A stretch of 18,536 nucleotides of DNA, taken from assembly GCA_017549385.1 (NCBI GenBank), contig JAFYUX010000013.1, forward strand, positions 1 through 18,536, in the 5' to 3' direction. The notes under the pieces are model-generated. The model did no database searches and was not told the DNA's origin. It saw nothing but the letters and a program-made list of their open reading frames with translations. Both the position numbers and the translations under genes were made by a program. Source of the DNA: Bacillota bacterium (GTDB taxonomy: Bacteria; Bacillota; Clostridia; Peptostreptococcales; Anaerovoracaceae). Position 1 is the stretch's first letter; the number at the start of each line of letters is the position of its first letter. This document shows positions 11,534 through 16,496 of the stretch, in pieces.

Positions 11534-11570
11534 AAGGCTGTTGCACTATATGCAACAGCCTTATTTTATT
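11534..11570. terminator. Bidirectional terminator between argH and the 11566-12060 gene
   Basis: AAGGCTGTTGCA (11534-11545) pairs perfectly with TGCAACAGCCTT (11551-11562) around a 5-nt loop. T-rich sequence follows on the plus strand (TATTTTATT), and a T-rich tract on the minus strand corresponds to the A run at 11520-11535. It serves the two converging genes. Confidence 0.85.
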
Positions 11571-12060
11571 CTTCGTCATCTACAACGCGTCCATCACTTT
11601 CGATAACTCCGTTATCACCATTTGATGAACCACCTCTTTTTGATCTGATAAAAGTACTGATAAATCTTTCACCGACACCCACTAATGCCAGCACCAGAAC
11701 AATCGCTACAAGTTCTGATGATAAAAAGCTGCCATTAAGTTTAGTCAGTGTGTTGGACTTAAAGTGAAGTGTGTAATCTTCTTTTGCCACCTGTGTACCC
11801 GCAACAGTCTCTGTGTGTACTGCAATGTCTTTGTCCAGTTCTGGAACAGAAATCTTAAATGTAGGGCTTCCGTTATCCTTTACAGGAGTGTACTCAACAT
11901 CATTTACGATCATTGTATCAATATCAGAATCTTTCCAGATAACTGTAGCAGTCATCTCACCATCTTTTATCTCACAAGATGTAGGATTCTGAATCTGTAC
12001 AGAATCATCCCCACCTGATACATTAACACCTATATTATATACGCCATCCTTATATTCCAC
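11566..12060 (-). CDS. Unrecognised protein: beta-rich domain, one C-terminal membrane segment, acidic tail
   Basis: I place the start at GTG 12060 because GGAG lies eight bases upstream. The in-frame ATG at 12102 has no ribosome site and adds only 14 residues. The 164-residue product begins with a domain of about 95 residues, YKDGVYNIGVNVSGGDDSV then EIKDGEMTATVIWKDSDI and VNDVEYTPV. This resembles repeat domains of clostridial surface or ligand-binding proteins that alternate strands with DG turns. A hydrophobic helix SSELVAIVLVLALVGVGERF follows, then KRGG and a tail rich in Gly, Asn and Asp. The membrane topology suggests an anchored extracellular domain, but neither start gives a signal peptide, and I found none in the other frames just upstream. 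It may be a truncated remnant of a longer surface protein. It converges on argH across a shared terminator. Confidence 0.6.
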   Translation of the reverse strand: MEYKDGVYNIGVNVSGGDDSVQIQNPTSCEIKDGEMTATVIWKDSDIDTMIVNDVEYTPVKDNGSPTFKISVPELDKDIAVHTETVAGTQVAKEDYTLHFKSNTLTKLNGSFLSSELVAIVLVLALVGVGERFISTFIRSKRGGSSNGDNGVIESDGRVVDDEE

Positions 12061-12190
12061 GTCTCTATCTCCTTTTGTTTTCAGATTTAATACATTCAGC
12101 ATAACACATCAGATACAGACTATACAACCTTTTAAAACCACTGACTTACCGATTCTGATAATCAATGACTCAAAATATTTTTACATAATA

Positions 12191-12222
12191 TAAAAAAGTC
12201 ACCTTGAAAAACCAAGGTGACT
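12191..12222 (-). terminator. Second terminator downstream of adhE
   Basis: AGTCACCTTG (12197-12206) pairs perfectly with CAAGGTGACT (12213-12222) around a 6-nt loop. On the minus strand TTTTTT follows directly (complement of 12192-12197). It would stop transcripts that pass the first adhE hairpin. Confidence 0.75.
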
Positions 12223-12269
12223 CTCATTTGTTTGTTTGTGTGTTTGGTTAATATCAAAAAGATATTAAA

Positions 12270-12300
12270 CGAGCCGGTACCGGAGTACCGGCTCGATTTT
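12270..12300 (-). terminator. First terminator downstream of adhE
   Basis: CGAGCCGGTAC (12270-12280) pairs perfectly with GTACCGGCTCG (12285-12295) around CGGA. T-rich sequence flanks it on both strands. It lies about 55 nt after the adhE stop. A smaller 8-bp hairpin TTAATATC/GATATTAA (12248-12268) follows it on the minus strand. Confidence 0.7.
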
Positions 12301-12350: not shown

Positions 12351-14987
12351 TTACTTCTTAACCTTTGCATCATATTCTTCGCCCCAGTAAGCTCTGAGGT
12401 AGATTTCCTTGATTTCAGAGAAGAGTGGATATACAGGGTTACCGCCTGTGCACTGGTCGTTGAATGCGTTTTCAACCATTTCGTCGAGAGTAGCCATGAA
12501 GTCAGCTTCTGCGATACCGTATTCCTTGATGCTCATTGGAACGTCGATAGCTCTCTTGAGGTCGTTAGCAGCCTTGATGAAGTTGTCGAATGTTTCTTCA
12601 TCAGTCTTACCCTTGAAGCCACAGAATTCACCGATTTCAACATATCTTTCGAATGCCTGTGGATACTTGTACTGAGAGAATGTACCCATCTTAGTAGGAA
12701 CTCTCTGAGCGTTGTACTTACAGATTTCTGTGTAGAGTACAGCGTTTGCAGTACCGTGTGGTAAGTGGTGGTAACCACCGAGCTTGTGAGCGAGTGAGTG
12801 GTTGATACCGAGGAATGCGTTAGCGAATGCGATACCAGCTAAGCAAGAAGCGTCAGCCATCTTGATTCTAGCTTCTTCGTCTTCTGCACCGTTCTTGTAA
12901 GCTCTTGGGAGGTAATCGAATACCATCTTGATAGCTGTAAGAGCCATACCGTTAGTGTAGTCAGAAGCTAAGAGTGAAACGTAGGCTTCAGTAGCGTGAG
13001 TTAATACGTCATAACCAGAAGCTCTTGTTACTGATGGTGGCATGTTCATCATGTAGTCAGCGTCTACGATAGCCATTTCTGGGAGGATTTCGTAGTCAGC
13101 GATAGGCCACTTGTAACCAGTTTCAGCGTCAGAGATGATTGTGAATGGAGTTACTTCAGAACCTGTACCAGCTGTTGTTGGGATACATACGAGCTTAGCC
13201 TTCTTACCGAGCTTAGGGAAGAAACCTACTCTCTTTCTGATATCGATAAATACAGTAGCGAGGTCTAACCATCTTGTTCTGTATTCTGGAGCTTCGTAGA
13301 GTAACCACATCATCTTTGCTGTATCGATAGCAGAACCACCACCGATAGCTAAGATTACGTCTGGCTGGAATGCATCCATATCAGGGAGACCCTTCATGCA
13401 GTCCTGAATCTTAGGGTCAACTTCGATACCGTAGAAGTAAGATACCTGGATGCCCATTTCTTCTAACTGTCTAGCAGCTGGTTCGTGGATACCGAGCTTG
13501 AAGAGGTTAGCGTCAGTTACGATGAAGCACTTCTTGAAGTTATATTCATCCTTGAATTCCTTGAGGGCAACTGGAGTACAGCCCTTCTTGAAGTATACTT
13601 TAGGTGGTACTCTTAACCAGAGCATATTTTCTCTCCTTTCAGCTACAATCTTGATGTTGAGGAGGTGTTCGAAGTTAACCTGACCTGTTACAGAAGAACC
13701 ACCCCAAGAACCAGGTCCGAGTGTGAGTGATGGAGCGATGTCGAAGTTGTAGAGGTCACCGATACCACCGTGAGCTGTAGGAGTATTAATGATAAGACGA
13801 CCAGCCTTTACAGTGCTGTAGAACTTTTCGATCTTTTCAGTTTCCTTAGGGTTAACATACATCGCACCAGTGTGACCAGGACCACCTTCGTATACGAGCT
13901 TGTCGCAGATAGCGAGAGCTTCGTCGAAGTTCTTAGCCTTGAACATACCGAGAACTGGGCAAAGCTTTTCGTTAGCCCAAGCGTTGTCGTGGCTTGTGTC
14001 AGCTGTTTCAGCTACGAGAACCTTAGTGCCTTCTGGAACCTTAACGCCAGCCATTTCAGCGAGAACCATAGCAGACTTACCAACAGCCTGAGCCTTTACG
14101 CCGTGTGTAGCAGCATTGAAGAATACATCAGCAACCTTCTTAGCTTCAGCTGGAGATAAGAAGTAGCATCTGCTTTCCTGCATAAGCTTCTTAACATCCT
14201 TGTAGATGCTTTCAACAACTGTGATGTGCTGTTCAGAAGCACAGATAACACCGTTATCGAATGTCTTAGAGTGGATGATAGATGCGATAGCTGTCTTGAT
14301 GTCAGCTGTTTCGTCGATGATTACGTTACAGTTACCAGGACCTACGCCGAGTGATGGAGTACCAGAAGAGTAAGCAGCTCTTACCATAGCTTCACCACCA
14401 GTAGCGATTACGAGGTCAACAGCCTTCATGAATACTGCAGAGAGTTCGAGTGAAGGTTCGTCGATCCAAGCGATAACGCCTTCTGGCATACCTGCCTTGA
14501 TAGCAGCTTCGTTCATGATCTTAGCAGCTTCTACAGAAGAGTTCTTAGCACCTGGGTGTGGAGAAACGATGATAGCGTTTCTTGTCTTTAAGCAGATGAG
14601 GATCTTAAAGATAGTTGTAGAAGTTGGGTTTGTTGTTGGAGTGATAGCACCTACAACACCTACAGGTTCTGCGATTCTCTTTGTACCAGCAGCCTTGTTT
14701 TCTTCGATTACACCGCAAGTCTTAGCGTGTCTGAAGTAGTTGTGTACGTGTTCAGCAGCGTAGTTGTTCTTGATAACCTTATCTTCTACGATACCCATAC
14801 CAGTTTCAGCGTTAGCCATCTTTGCGAGTGGGATTCTTGCCTGGTTTGCAGCGTTTGCAGCAGCGAAGCAGATTGCGTCAACCTGTTCCTGAGTAAACTT
14901 TGCGTAAATTTCCTGAGCCTTGCGAACTTCAGCTAATTTAGCTTCGAATGATTCGATTGAGTTCACCTTATCAAATTTTTTTGCCAT
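12351..14987 (-). CDS. adhE: Bifunctional acetaldehyde-CoA/alcohol dehydrogenase AdhE
   Basis: The 878-residue fusion reduces acetyl-CoA to acetaldehyde and then to ethanol, using two NADH, and regenerates NAD+ in fermentation. The N-terminal aldehyde dehydrogenase domain (about 1-440) has the catalytic Cys249 in NGVICASEQ and GVGPGN near 214. The C-terminal iron alcohol dehydrogenase domain (about 455-878) has GGGSAIDTAK at 549-558 and IPTTAGTGSE near 602. Its iron ligands are D660, H664, H730 and H744, spaced exactly as in E. coli AdhE. No key residue is missing. AGGAGGA lies four bases before the ATG. The gene stands alone, with a strong promoter about 250 bp upstream, a structured leader and several hairpins behind. 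Codon use is highly biased, fitting an abundant enzyme; AdhE usually forms spirosome filaments. Confidence 0.97.
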   Translation of the reverse strand: MAKKFDKVNSIESFEAKLAEVRKAQEIYAKFTQEQVDAICFAAANAANQARIPLAKMANAETGMGIVEDKVIKNNYAAEHVHNYFRHAKTCGVIEENKAAGTKRIAEPVGVVGAITPTTNPTSTTIFKILICLKTRNAIIVSPHPGAKNSSVEAAKIMNEAAIKAGMPEGVIAWIDEPSLELSAVFMKAVDLVIATGGEAMVRAAYSSGTPSLGVGPGNCNVIIDETADIKTAIASIIHSKTFDNGVICASEQHITVVESIYKDVKKLMQESRCYFLSPAEAKKVADVFFNAATHGVKAQAVGKSAMVLAEMAGVKVPEGTKVLVAETADTSHDNAWANEKLCPVLGMFKAKNFDEALAICDKLVYEGGPGHTGAMYVNPKETEKIEKFYSTVKAGRLIINTPTAHGGIGDLYNFDIAPSLTLGPGSWGGSSVTGQVNFEHLLNIKIVAERRENMLWLRVPPKVYFKKGCTPVALKEFKDEYNFKKCFIVTDANLFKLGIHEPAARQLEEMGIQVSYFYGIEVDPKIQDCMKGLPDMDAFQPDVILAIGGGSAIDTAKMMWLLYEAPEYRTRWLDLATVFIDIRKRVGFFPKLGKKAKLVCIPTTAGTGSEVTPFTIISDAETGYKWPIADYEILPEMAIVDADYMMNMPPSVTRASGYDVLTHATEAYVSLLASDYTNGMALTAIKMVFDYLPRAYKNGAEDEEARIKMADASCLAGIAFANAFLGINHSLAHKLGGYHHLPHGTANAVLYTEICKYNAQRVPTKMGTFSQYKYPQAFERYVEIGEFCGFKGKTDEETFDNFIKAANDLKRAIDVPMSIKEYGIAEADFMATLDEMVENAFNDQCTGGNPVYPLFSEIKEIYLRAYWGEEYDAKVKK

Positions 14988-15035
14988 ATTTTCCTCCTGA
15001 AAATAAATGCTAGAAAAAACTAAAAACTAATTATC

Positions 15036-15232
15036 TCAAAGTCACTATCCACACGACCTTGATTTTAAGTTAGTGGTCCATGTGAGAATTGTTGTTCGCC
15101 GGGATCTTCCAGAAGTGTCTCCTGATTTCCGTATGATCCATTGTAGTTCCTTGTTATATATGTACGGTAGTAAAACTACCCGCACTGCTGGAGGAACCTT
15201 TTTCTTGGAACAAGCGCATTCCCTCACTTACC
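15036..15232 (-). ncRNA. Structured leader RNA of adhE (candidate cis-regulatory RNA or small RNA)
   Basis: The predicted transcript start near 15232 coincides with the 5' strand of a closing stem. Minus-strand GGT plus GTGAG..AAT (15232-15218) pairs with ATTCTCAC..ACC (15089-15075), with a 2-nt bulge and a small internal loop. Inside are a hairpin GGTAGT/ACTACC (15166-15180) enclosed by GTTCCT/AGGAAC (15192-15197 with 15146-15151), and a hairpin CAGGAG-ACA-CTTCTG (15110-15124) with an outer CGGA/TCCG stem. After the domain comes TCAAGGTC/GACTTTGA (15036-15062, 11-nt loop), then T-rich sequence before the adhE ribosome site. Two stems contain G.U pairs that work only in the minus-strand RNA, supporting orientation. 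I do not recognise a known riboswitch, T-box or 6S signature. Confidence 0.45.
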
Positions 15233-15238
15233 GATGAT

Positions 15239-15268
15239 AGAATATCACAAATACTTGCCACCTGTCAA
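15239..15268 (-). promoter_or_regulatory. Promoter of adhE
   Basis: On the minus strand the consensus TTGACA (15268-15263) is followed after 18 bp by TATTCT (15244-15239), with an extended -10 TG immediately upstream. The expected start is near 15232, leaving a leader of about 245 nt before the adhE ATG. Confidence 0.7.
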
Positions 15269-15269
15269 A

Positions 15270-15780
15270 TTTTCAGACTTAAACAATTATTTAACAATCA
15301 TCTTCAAACCCATTAAAATCAACGTTTTGAATCGTATACAATCATCCAAAAAAGCACTTTGCAACCATATTTTATTTGCAAATATTGCTAATTGACACAA
15401 TGGCTACAAACGTTCAAATCACAGCATTTTTGCCATTTTCAAAAAAATTGTTTTACAAACGATACAGCTTTTTCCATTGGTGTTAACAACTAGTTTTGTC
15501 GGTTTTTACAACACATTTTTTTACTTTGAAAGTCAAAACAAGTCGCTATTTCACGTTTATTTGCGGTTATACCCCTTGTCAAAGGTTCAGCAATCTAGTT
15601 AAAAACACTACAAAATCACCATGATTTTAGAAATTTTTCTCATTTTCTTCCAAAATTTTTATCAAGTATTATGTATACATGAAAAAATACCTAAAAAACC
15701 TGCTTTTTACCCACCGTTTATATATTATGATATATATGAAACAGCTAATAATTGATACTAAATACGTCTAACGGAGTTTT
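15270..15780. other. AT-rich non-coding stretch between the adhE promoter and the Fic-like gene
   Basis: No open frame with a ribosome site was found in this roughly 510-bp stretch. It is clearly more AT-rich than the flanking genes. It contains a 10-bp palindrome ATGTATACAT (15671-15680) and a possible weak promoter for the next gene: TTTACC at 15706-15711 with GATATA at 15729-15734, or the extended TG-A-TATATA at 15728-15736. A few Rex- or CodY-like fragments are present but none is complete. It probably holds the regulatory regions of both divergent genes. Confidence 0.5.
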
Positions 15781-15785
15781 TAACA

Positions 15786-16496
15786 ATGAAACACCTTCTT
15801 CAAGACCTTGAAAATCAGATGACAAAACTTAAAAATATGCCTTCCGACATAGCGGCAGCTATGCAGACATCCAATATTGATAGATGGATGACTTCTGTTA
15901 TTCGTTTATATGGATGTCCTCTTTCTTCCGACAGGATTTTAGCTATGATAGAAGGTCAGAATATCCGCGAAGCCACAGTCAGCGACTATCAGCTCACGGA
16001 AATATGCCGCAGCCTCTACTCCGAGTTTGAGTACATGGCCGGTTTTGACACAAATCTGGATATAAAGACTATCGGTAGACTGCACCAGATTATCATGGAT
16101 GCTTCTACGCCGGTTCCATATAGAGACAGAGTTCATTTTGTAGACGAGATGGTTTATCCTGCGCCGGGTCCTGCTCGTATACCTCAGCTGCTGAGAGCAT
16201 GCGAACTGGAGATTTCATCTGATGATCATCAGGCCGACAAAATAGAAGGTGCCATCCGTACCCACGATATGATTATGGCTATCTGGCCTTATTCACAACA
16301 CAGCGACACACTTGCTTATGTCTGTATGAGCTACGAGCTTTTCAAAGCCGGTTATCCATTACCTACTCTGGACTTGAATCCCGTTCAGCATCTGCAGATA
16401 TCTGCCGAGTTTACAAACAAAGGCTCATCAAAAGCCCTTACTGAAATAGTGCTGACAAACCTCCTTCAGGAAGTCAATCTCGAGCCTCGCTGGTAA
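15786..16496 (+). CDS. Fic-like fold protein with degenerate active-site motif
   Basis: The 236-residue protein has the order of segments seen in Fic-domain proteins. These are IEG at 55-57 (the position of the inhibitory-helix E-G), a helix with LHQIIMDAS at 99-107, PYRDRVHFVDEMVYPAPGPA at 111-130 (the flap-like region), and a helix with THDMIMAIWPYSQHSDTLAY. In active Fic enzymes the last region reads HPFxxGNGR-like and its histidine is catalytic. Here W167, P168 and Y169 replace His-Pro-Phe, and SDTL replaces the glycine-rich anion loop, so AMP transfer by the usual mechanism is not expected. The ATG at 15786 has GGAG nine bases upstream. It is cytoplasmic, co-directional with yfcE, and separated from it by 73 nt. 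The Fic link is inferred from pattern only; a wholly different helical family is the alternative. Confidence 0.5.
   Translation: MKHLLQDLENQMTKLKNMPSDIAAAMQTSNIDRWMTSVIRLYGCPLSSDRILAMIEGQNIREATVSDYQLTEICRSLYSEFEYMAGFDTNLDIKTIGRLHQIIMDASTPVPYRDRVHFVDEMVYPAPGPARIPQLLRACELEISSDDHQADKIEGAIRTHDMIMAIWPYSQHSDTLAYVCMSYELFKAGYPLPTLDLNPVQHLQISAEFTNKGSSKALTEIVLTNLLQEVNLEPRW

Follow-up and report, generated by a model that had tools for sequence, protein, structure and literature searches.

Clostridial adhE promoters are controlled by Rex via a Rex box. Leader stems of the ompA and aprE type act as 5'-stabilizing elements. For Escherichia coli, RNase III-dependent translation of the adhE leader was reportedly described by Aristarkhov et al. 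in 1996. According to PMC5371410, the ribosome-binding site of E. coli adhE is occluded until cleavage by RNase III, and in PMC9032294, adhE is named among the genes helped by this enzyme. In the literature on adhE and riboswitches, no adhE leader element appears among the matches listed, which are noisy as the term also catches adhesion. Nothing was found that combines adhE leader attenuation and Rex.

The window, i.e., the whole stretch of 18,536 nucleotides analyzed here, is one whole contig (C112) of genome G000, which is 57% complete. It encodes a full-length AdhE on the minus strand (NF010378, 1227.6 bits versus a cut-off of 951). The next long ORF upstream of adhE is divergent and lies at 15786, leaving an intergenic region of about 800 bp. 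This divergent neighbor (15786-16496, plus strand) has a weak Fic/DOC match (24.6 bits versus a cut-off of 24), and the protein encoded downstream of adhE (11566-12102, minus strand) matches NEAT (iron transport) below the threshold (22.6 bits versus a cut-off of 32.8). Between adhE and that next gene, two strong inverted repeats (12197-12222 and 12267-12298) occur in a region with a folding z of -7.08, the former with TTTTTT after it on the minus strand; both are probably adhE terminators. For the region in front of adhE, our preferred reading, to which we give a probability of roughly 45%, is an ordinary, lineage-specific long 5' UTR of the adhE mRNA, of which the 5' end may be base-paired and the role, if any, would be passive. 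The features concerned are the following:

12351..14987, minus strand: adhE, bifunctional acetaldehyde-CoA/alcohol dehydrogenase of 878 aa
14988..15232, minus strand: predicted adhE 5' leader of about 245 nt, with its start taken from the promoter
14991..14997, minus strand: GGAGGAA, Shine-Dalgarno sequence of adhE
15036..15062, minus strand: hairpin of 9 bp (-7.3 kcal/mol), not terminator-like
15070..15141, minus strand: possible 23-codon upstream ORF, preceded by AAGGA
15075..15232, minus strand: predicted folded domain with closing stem 15232-15218/15089-15075, inner stem 15213-15208/15097-15092 and hairpins 15198-15145 and ~15139-15102
15190..15196, minus strand: TTCCTCC, perfect complement of GGAGGAA, overlapping GTTCC copy 2
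15193..15197, minus strand: GTTCC copy 2
15207..15211, minus strand: GTTCC copy 1
15239..15244, minus strand: -10 element TATTCT, 18 nt from the -35 element, predicted +1 at about 15232
15263..15268, minus strand: -35 element TTGACA

The TTGACA-18-TATTCT promoter (15268-15239), proposed for adhE by an earlier sequence-only reading, is present with 10 of 12 consensus matches. In a scan of 14900-15800, eight promoter-like sites were found versus 3.6 (sd 1.9) expected; the same promoter is also ranked first by a second scoring. This sigma-A-type promoter is predicted to start the adhE transcript at about 15232, which agrees with the earlier proposal that the transcript begins at the 5' strand of a stem, as the predicted +1 is the first stem base. 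The locus shares its gene and a similar promoter with the Rex-controlled clostridial adhE promoters. While a Rex-like site with at least 12 of 14 matches occurs in 40 of 98 adhE upstream segments (some genomes counted twice) compared to 6 of 98 shuffled ones, the best site on the minus strand of 14988-15437 reaches only 10 of 14, and no good Rex-like box is present there. A search of the genome for a Rex N-terminal domain was negative, which says little because only 57% of it is covered.

The closing stem, described earlier as a long-range stem, can indeed pair at 12 of its 15 positions. For starts from 15232 to 15236 and RNAs ending at 15075, 14988 or 14958, its best pair has a probability (P) of 0.99-1.00, and the mean P over the 15 positions is 0.78-0.79. 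For a start at 15232, the best pair retains a P of 0.97-1.00 when 0-88 nt of adhE are folded along, but only 0.06 with 118 nt. Folding the leader to 14988 gives a P of 0.42 for a start at 15231 and 0.06 for a start at 15230; for these two starts, P varies from 0.95 to 0.00 with the 3' end. In the folding model, the closing stem is marginal and fragile, hinging on the start site and on the length of adhE that is folded. Moreover, a partner of 12/15 or better for the 15 terminal bases is found in 1100 of 2000 shuffles. The inner stem is predicted with a P of 0.90-0.98 (+1 at 15232, leader to 14988). Over 15090-15249, folding is more favorable for the minus than for the plus strand (z -2.0 versus 0.0), in line with the earlier assignment of the fold to the adhE-sense RNA.

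The far-downstream pairing of the first 14 nt of the leader exceeds that in 98 of 100 shuffles (2/100 reach the same). Among nine adhE leaders with a predicted start, this is seen only in the window and in G574 (0/100), the latter with a similar arrangement in unrelated sequence (GAGAATCAGG...CCTGATTCTC). The level is reached by 37/100 shuffles for G076, 14/100 for G143, 40/100 for G116, 100/100 for G618, 95/100 for G559, 76/100 for G605 and 64/100 for L051. The idea that adhE leaders generally carry a stem at +1 was rejected, as seven of the nine do not exceed shuffles, and a function of the stem as a 5' cap is a weak reading because the far-paired 5' end recurs only in those two. The adhE leader would resemble the ompA/aprE type of stabilizing stems if its predicted 5' end lies within a stem, but here the stem would belong to a long-range 158-nt domain of marginal predicted stability.

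The fold of the adhE leader is ordinary for this genome and its structure is near background. The whole leader has a z of -1.22, with 26 of 200 shuffles equally stable (second run: z -1.26; 9/100), and the domain with chosen borders has a z of -2.22, with 5 of 200 shuffles as stable. As the genome's own background, 61 gene-upstream regions were taken from 40 other G000 contigs and the window (228,596 bases; genes defined as ORFs of at least 100 aa), and each was represented by its lowest-energy 157-nt segment in 25-nt steps, with 30 shuffles per region. In this rough comparison, as some upstream regions include probable terminators of adjoining genes, 16 of the 60 other regions are at or below the adhE leader in best energy, and 35 of 60 are so in z. 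When the adhE leader is searched at every base, its best 157-nt segment has -39.9 kcal/mol, a value that 13 of the 60 others equal or undercut at the coarse step. The GC content of the leader is higher than in 54 of the 60 regions (equal or higher in six). Selection on the fold is unsupported because its stability is barely above that of shuffles (z -1.2) and ordinary for the genome.

The sequence-only reading also described an apparent RNA switch in which two GTTCC copies compete for a single GGAAC. Both copies and the one GGAAC (15150-15146) are there, but each copy has its own partner: copy 2 pairs with GGAAC (P 0.99), and copy 1 pairs with GAACAA at 15092-15097 (P about 0.97) instead. The competing pair of copy 1 and GGAAC has a P of 0.00-0.01 across every fold tried, and forcing it costs 4.1 kcal/mol, unlike the mutually exclusive pairings of similar energy that would be expected of a riboswitch. 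When the 3' end is extended stepwise, the hairpin of copy 2 and GGAAC is present once GGAAC is transcribed. Before 15075 is transcribed, the optimum includes a local 5'-end hairpin using the copy 1 region at 3' ends 15146 and 15099 (shorter at 15130), which is replaced by the closing stem when the 3' end reaches 15075. In these simulated steps, the transient hairpin behaves as an ordinary folding intermediate, yet it is the closest thing to a rearrangement observed. The folding models do not support the proposed pairing switch.

With 15-118 nt of adhE folded along and a start at 15232, the Shine-Dalgarno core, GGAG, is unpaired with a probability of 0.85-1.00. When folding stops at 14988, pairing of this core with an upstream U-rich stretch predominates (unpaired 0.24-0.48). 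The GAA after the core is predicted to be paired in both cases. We chose the longer RNA, which includes the adhE start, as the more realistic one; the core would then probably be open by default.

Downstream of the domain, the hairpin 15036-15062 forms with a P of up to 0.97 (+1 at 15232, leader to 14988), and the 38-nt stretch around it alone has a z of -2.30. It had been described as lying before a T-rich stretch and as a possible regulated terminator. The hairpin itself is real in the predicted folds, but the terminator signature is absent and the T-rich stretch does not adjoin the 9-bp stem, which is directly followed by GATAATTA, without a T run. A weakly extended form (-10.4 kcal/mol) runs into TTTTTAGTTTTTT, and the wider stretch has a z of -0.32. 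A terminator scan of 14900-15800 gave no terminator-like site, and the probable terminators of this genome, the strong hairpins after adhE, are unlike 15036-15062. A UGUGG loop common to this hairpin and the G076 and G143 leaders was dropped as likely due to chance by our own estimate. An upstream ORF such as that at 15141-15070 occurs in 3.0% of shuffles, and none comparable exists in the 12 other adhE leaders that were properly scanned, a count that excludes L051, the leader of which was cut too short in the scan to show one. The ORF known from L051 (635-988) begins upstream of the predicted L051 +1 and extends into adhE in another frame. A likeness between the peptides encoded upstream of adhE in the window and in L051 (local score reached in 2.0% of 2000 shuffles) was dropped since the L051 ORF starts before the predicted +1 and since, in L051, the eight matched residues overlap the ribosome site and the start of adhE in a different frame.

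Rfam 15 gives no match at gathering score for the window, and at a lax threshold only three chance-level matches (E 2.2-6.7) for 14950-15320. The 6S RNA, which had been mentioned as a possibility, is absent from the matches at either threshold. Relatives for comparison are few: bifunctional AdhE is rare in the family (match at E <= 1e-90 in 16 of 349 genomes, the window's genome included), and the window's genus is represented by G000 alone among the genomes compared. The nearest AdhE proteins found are those of L051 (genome G534), with 76% over the best segment, and of G574, G552 and G618; over the first 296 residues, these three and G534 have 71-74% identity. In a blastn search of 61 genomes with the leader, the window itself is the sole match at E <= 0.001, the next having an E of 0.00104. 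Short matches at query positions 68-87 in several genomes were rejected as chance because they lie in apparent ileS coding sequence; for the segment concerned, 15193-15174 (CTCCAGCAGTGCGGGTAGTT), several relatives have such ileS matches of 90-95%. No AdhE relative was found in viral contigs and no leader match in plasmids and phages.

A covariance model of the domain (R1), built from the single sequence, finds itself alone in 349 family genomes, in 15 sources and in a set of 99 made up of the window plus 98 loci, mostly adhE-bearing or adhE-upstream, although searches of more than 40 genomes apply stricter filters by which weak matches are lost. It gives nothing at E <= 10 in G534 and, in 149 genomes around G534, one 17.8-bit fragment (E 0.78, in G643), which was taken for noise. 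As a control, a model made likewise from the single G076 sequence (R2) finds the same-genus G143 at an E of 1.8e-17. Because of this recovery, the covariance method is known to work at same-genus distance, a calibration that does not extend to the relatives at hand. Pairwise alignment of 14 adhE leaders (60 shuffles per pair) shows clear homology for G076/G143, which belong to one genus (z 58), and for G559/G605 (z 14). Another four pairs fall within z 5.2-5.7: for G574/G618, the alignment covers a stretch upstream of and into the promoter, and for G559/G612 the 3' part of the leader, while G618/G351 and G116/G103 align weakly. The best score of the window's leader is a z of 2.8, with L143. 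Against the L051 leader, 395-706 of 1000 shuffles score as well in five local scorings and 86 of 300 in one global scoring; a GATCCC...TCACATG pattern common to both was dropped, as shuffles score equally. Conservation in relatives, on which the earlier proposal had been made to depend, is thus largely absent by blastn, leader pairs and R1, at an identity of about 71-76% for the nearest AdhE compared and with G000 as the only member of its genus. This absence of sequence and structure homologues fits a fast-evolving UTR.

Some of the other leaders have features of their own. The adhE leaders of genus g72, L139:1247-1482 (G076) and L138:1250-1482 (G143), are structured well beyond chance, with z-values of -3.5 and -4.0 and 0/100 shuffles each as stable, and 4 of the 38 pairs in their two-sequence consensus fold are changed on both sides. 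Judged from these models, they are better candidates than the window for RNA control of adhE. A terminator-like hairpin lies inside the adhE leader, one on the adhE strand each, in L165 (minus strand, ~2703-2380; G559), L166:1198-1480 (G605) and L167:1371-1390 (G612), where the scan alone is weak, with 0.2-0.5 such hairpins expected per region on both strands. For G559 and G605, a promoter is seen by scan and the leaders are homologous; for G612, no promoter was seen on the adhE strand. In all three, a purine-rich AAAGGAG follows the hairpin, by eye lacking a start codon at the usual distance. These hairpins are possible attenuators.

Control at the ribosome-binding site would bring the locus closest to E. 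coli adhE. TTCCTCC would pair with GGAGGAA and stop translation unless the GGAAC at 15150-15146 holds it, with the balance shifted by processing or a ligand. Both systems have a leader before the same gene, and in both a segment is complementary to the ribosome-binding site. The perfect 7-nt anti-Shine-Dalgarno, which the earlier reading does not mention, and the E. coli precedent of occlusion (PMC5371410), with adhE named as helped by RNase III (PMC9032294), speak for such control. The g72 consensus points the same way, as its 5' TTGTC..TCC segment pairs with the Shine-Dalgarno sequence GGAGGACAA, but this pairing is missing from the single-sequence folds. Of the shuffled leaders, 1.1% have a 7-mer complementary to a stretch that covers GGAGG, which is no clean probability as TTCCTCC, the sole trace of a possible switch, was found post hoc. 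A match of 7 nt anywhere in the 20-nt ribosome-binding region is present in 69 of 400 shuffles, and 25 of 200 reach an equal or better duplex energy. Unlike in E. coli, the GGAG core in the window is predicted to be open once the adhE start is folded along, and the blocked fold (-54.7 kcal/mol) is 8 kcal/mol worse than the optimum (-62.7), with a P of 0.00 for TTCCTCC on the Shine-Dalgarno sequence. Blocking together with the pair of copy 1 and GGAAC has no nested fold and requires a pseudoknot, and conservation is missing. We consider control at this site unlikely. Its bolder form, a lineage-specific translational switch in which TTCCTCC is held by GGAAC or freed to block the adhE Shine-Dalgarno sequence, with copy 1 displacing copy 2 via a pseudoknot beyond nested folding, is highly improbable. 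Attenuation, in which the 23-codon ORF or the hairpin 15036-15062 would govern read-through into adhE, appears very unlikely as well. The AAGGA ahead of the ORF, the 3.0% of shuffles with such an ORF and the position of its stop codon at the foot of the extended hairpin, which reaches TTTTTAGTTTTTT, are compatible with it. They are opposed by the empty terminator scan and by a hairpin of -7.3 kcal/mol (-10.4 when extended) with no T after its 9-bp stem, unlike those after adhE. Leader-peptide attenuation would further imply a conserved ORF with a ribosome-binding site, whereas the ORF is seen in the window and in none of the 12 other leaders properly scanned.

A metabolite riboswitch of a class of its own or an independent small RNA is scarcely probable. 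The multi-branched predicted fold is the sole argument in its favor, and no Rfam match, no terminator for a small RNA and no homologue in 349 family genomes or 98 loci were found (one weak fragment in 149 more genomes), while the control was recovered at an E of 1.8e-17. A conserved aptamer core with covariation, typical of riboswitches, was not seen, with R1 finding only itself in the 349 genomes and 99 sources and the genus being represented by G000 alone, and the pairing switch is disfavored by energy. Of the overall picture drawn earlier, the long adhE leader able to fold from its 5' end is upheld by promoter and folding, but a switch with a regulated terminator or small RNA end is not. 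The alternative to be taken most seriously is a neutral leader, in which promoter and gene simply lie far apart and the fold is a chance product of a 157-nt stretch with 44-45% GC, i.e., structure without function. This is quite possible, and the neutral fold is nearly as good an explanation as passive protection. It accounts for the whole-leader z of -1.2 with 26 of 200 shuffles as stable, the 16 of 60 upstream regions that are as stable or better and the 35 of 60 with an equal or lower z, the terminal complementarity in 1100 of 2000 shuffles, the loss of the closing stem with 118 nt of adhE and the conservation that was not found. It fits less well with the z of -2.22 for the chosen domain, a 5' end with pairing above that of 98 of 100 shuffles and a GC content above that of 54 of the 60 other regions.

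In the preferred reading, that of an ordinary long leader, transcription would start at about 15232 from the sigma-A-type promoter, the first 158 nt could close on themselves with the 5' end within a stem, and the GGAG core would be open once the adhE start is in the RNA, so that the default state permits translation. If the fold acts at all, the paired 5' end may slow 5'-end-dependent mRNA decay, in addition to providing spacing; such passive 5'-end protection would be the most likely and the simplest role. For this reading speak the predicted +1 at the first stem base, the stem P of 0.97-1.00 with 0-88 nt of adhE, the far-downstream pairing of the first 14 nt, the similar arrangement in G574 and the open GGAG (0.85-1.00); against it stand the z of -1.2, a stability ordinary for this genome, the stem P of 0.06 with 118 nt and its drop for starts at 15231 or 15230, the seven of nine leaders that do not exceed shuffles, the mostly paired Shine-Dalgarno sequence in the fold ending at 14988 and a start that is a prediction. 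As it stands, the adhE leader is of little importance, given its ordinary stability and the lack of relatives found. Its value is rather that of a warning, since a 245-nt leader readily yields terminal complementarity, short repeats and an attractive fold. Were the anti-Shine-Dalgarno reading correct, the locus would be an example, outside E. coli, of adhE translation controlled at the RNA level, at a promoter where no good Rex box was seen.
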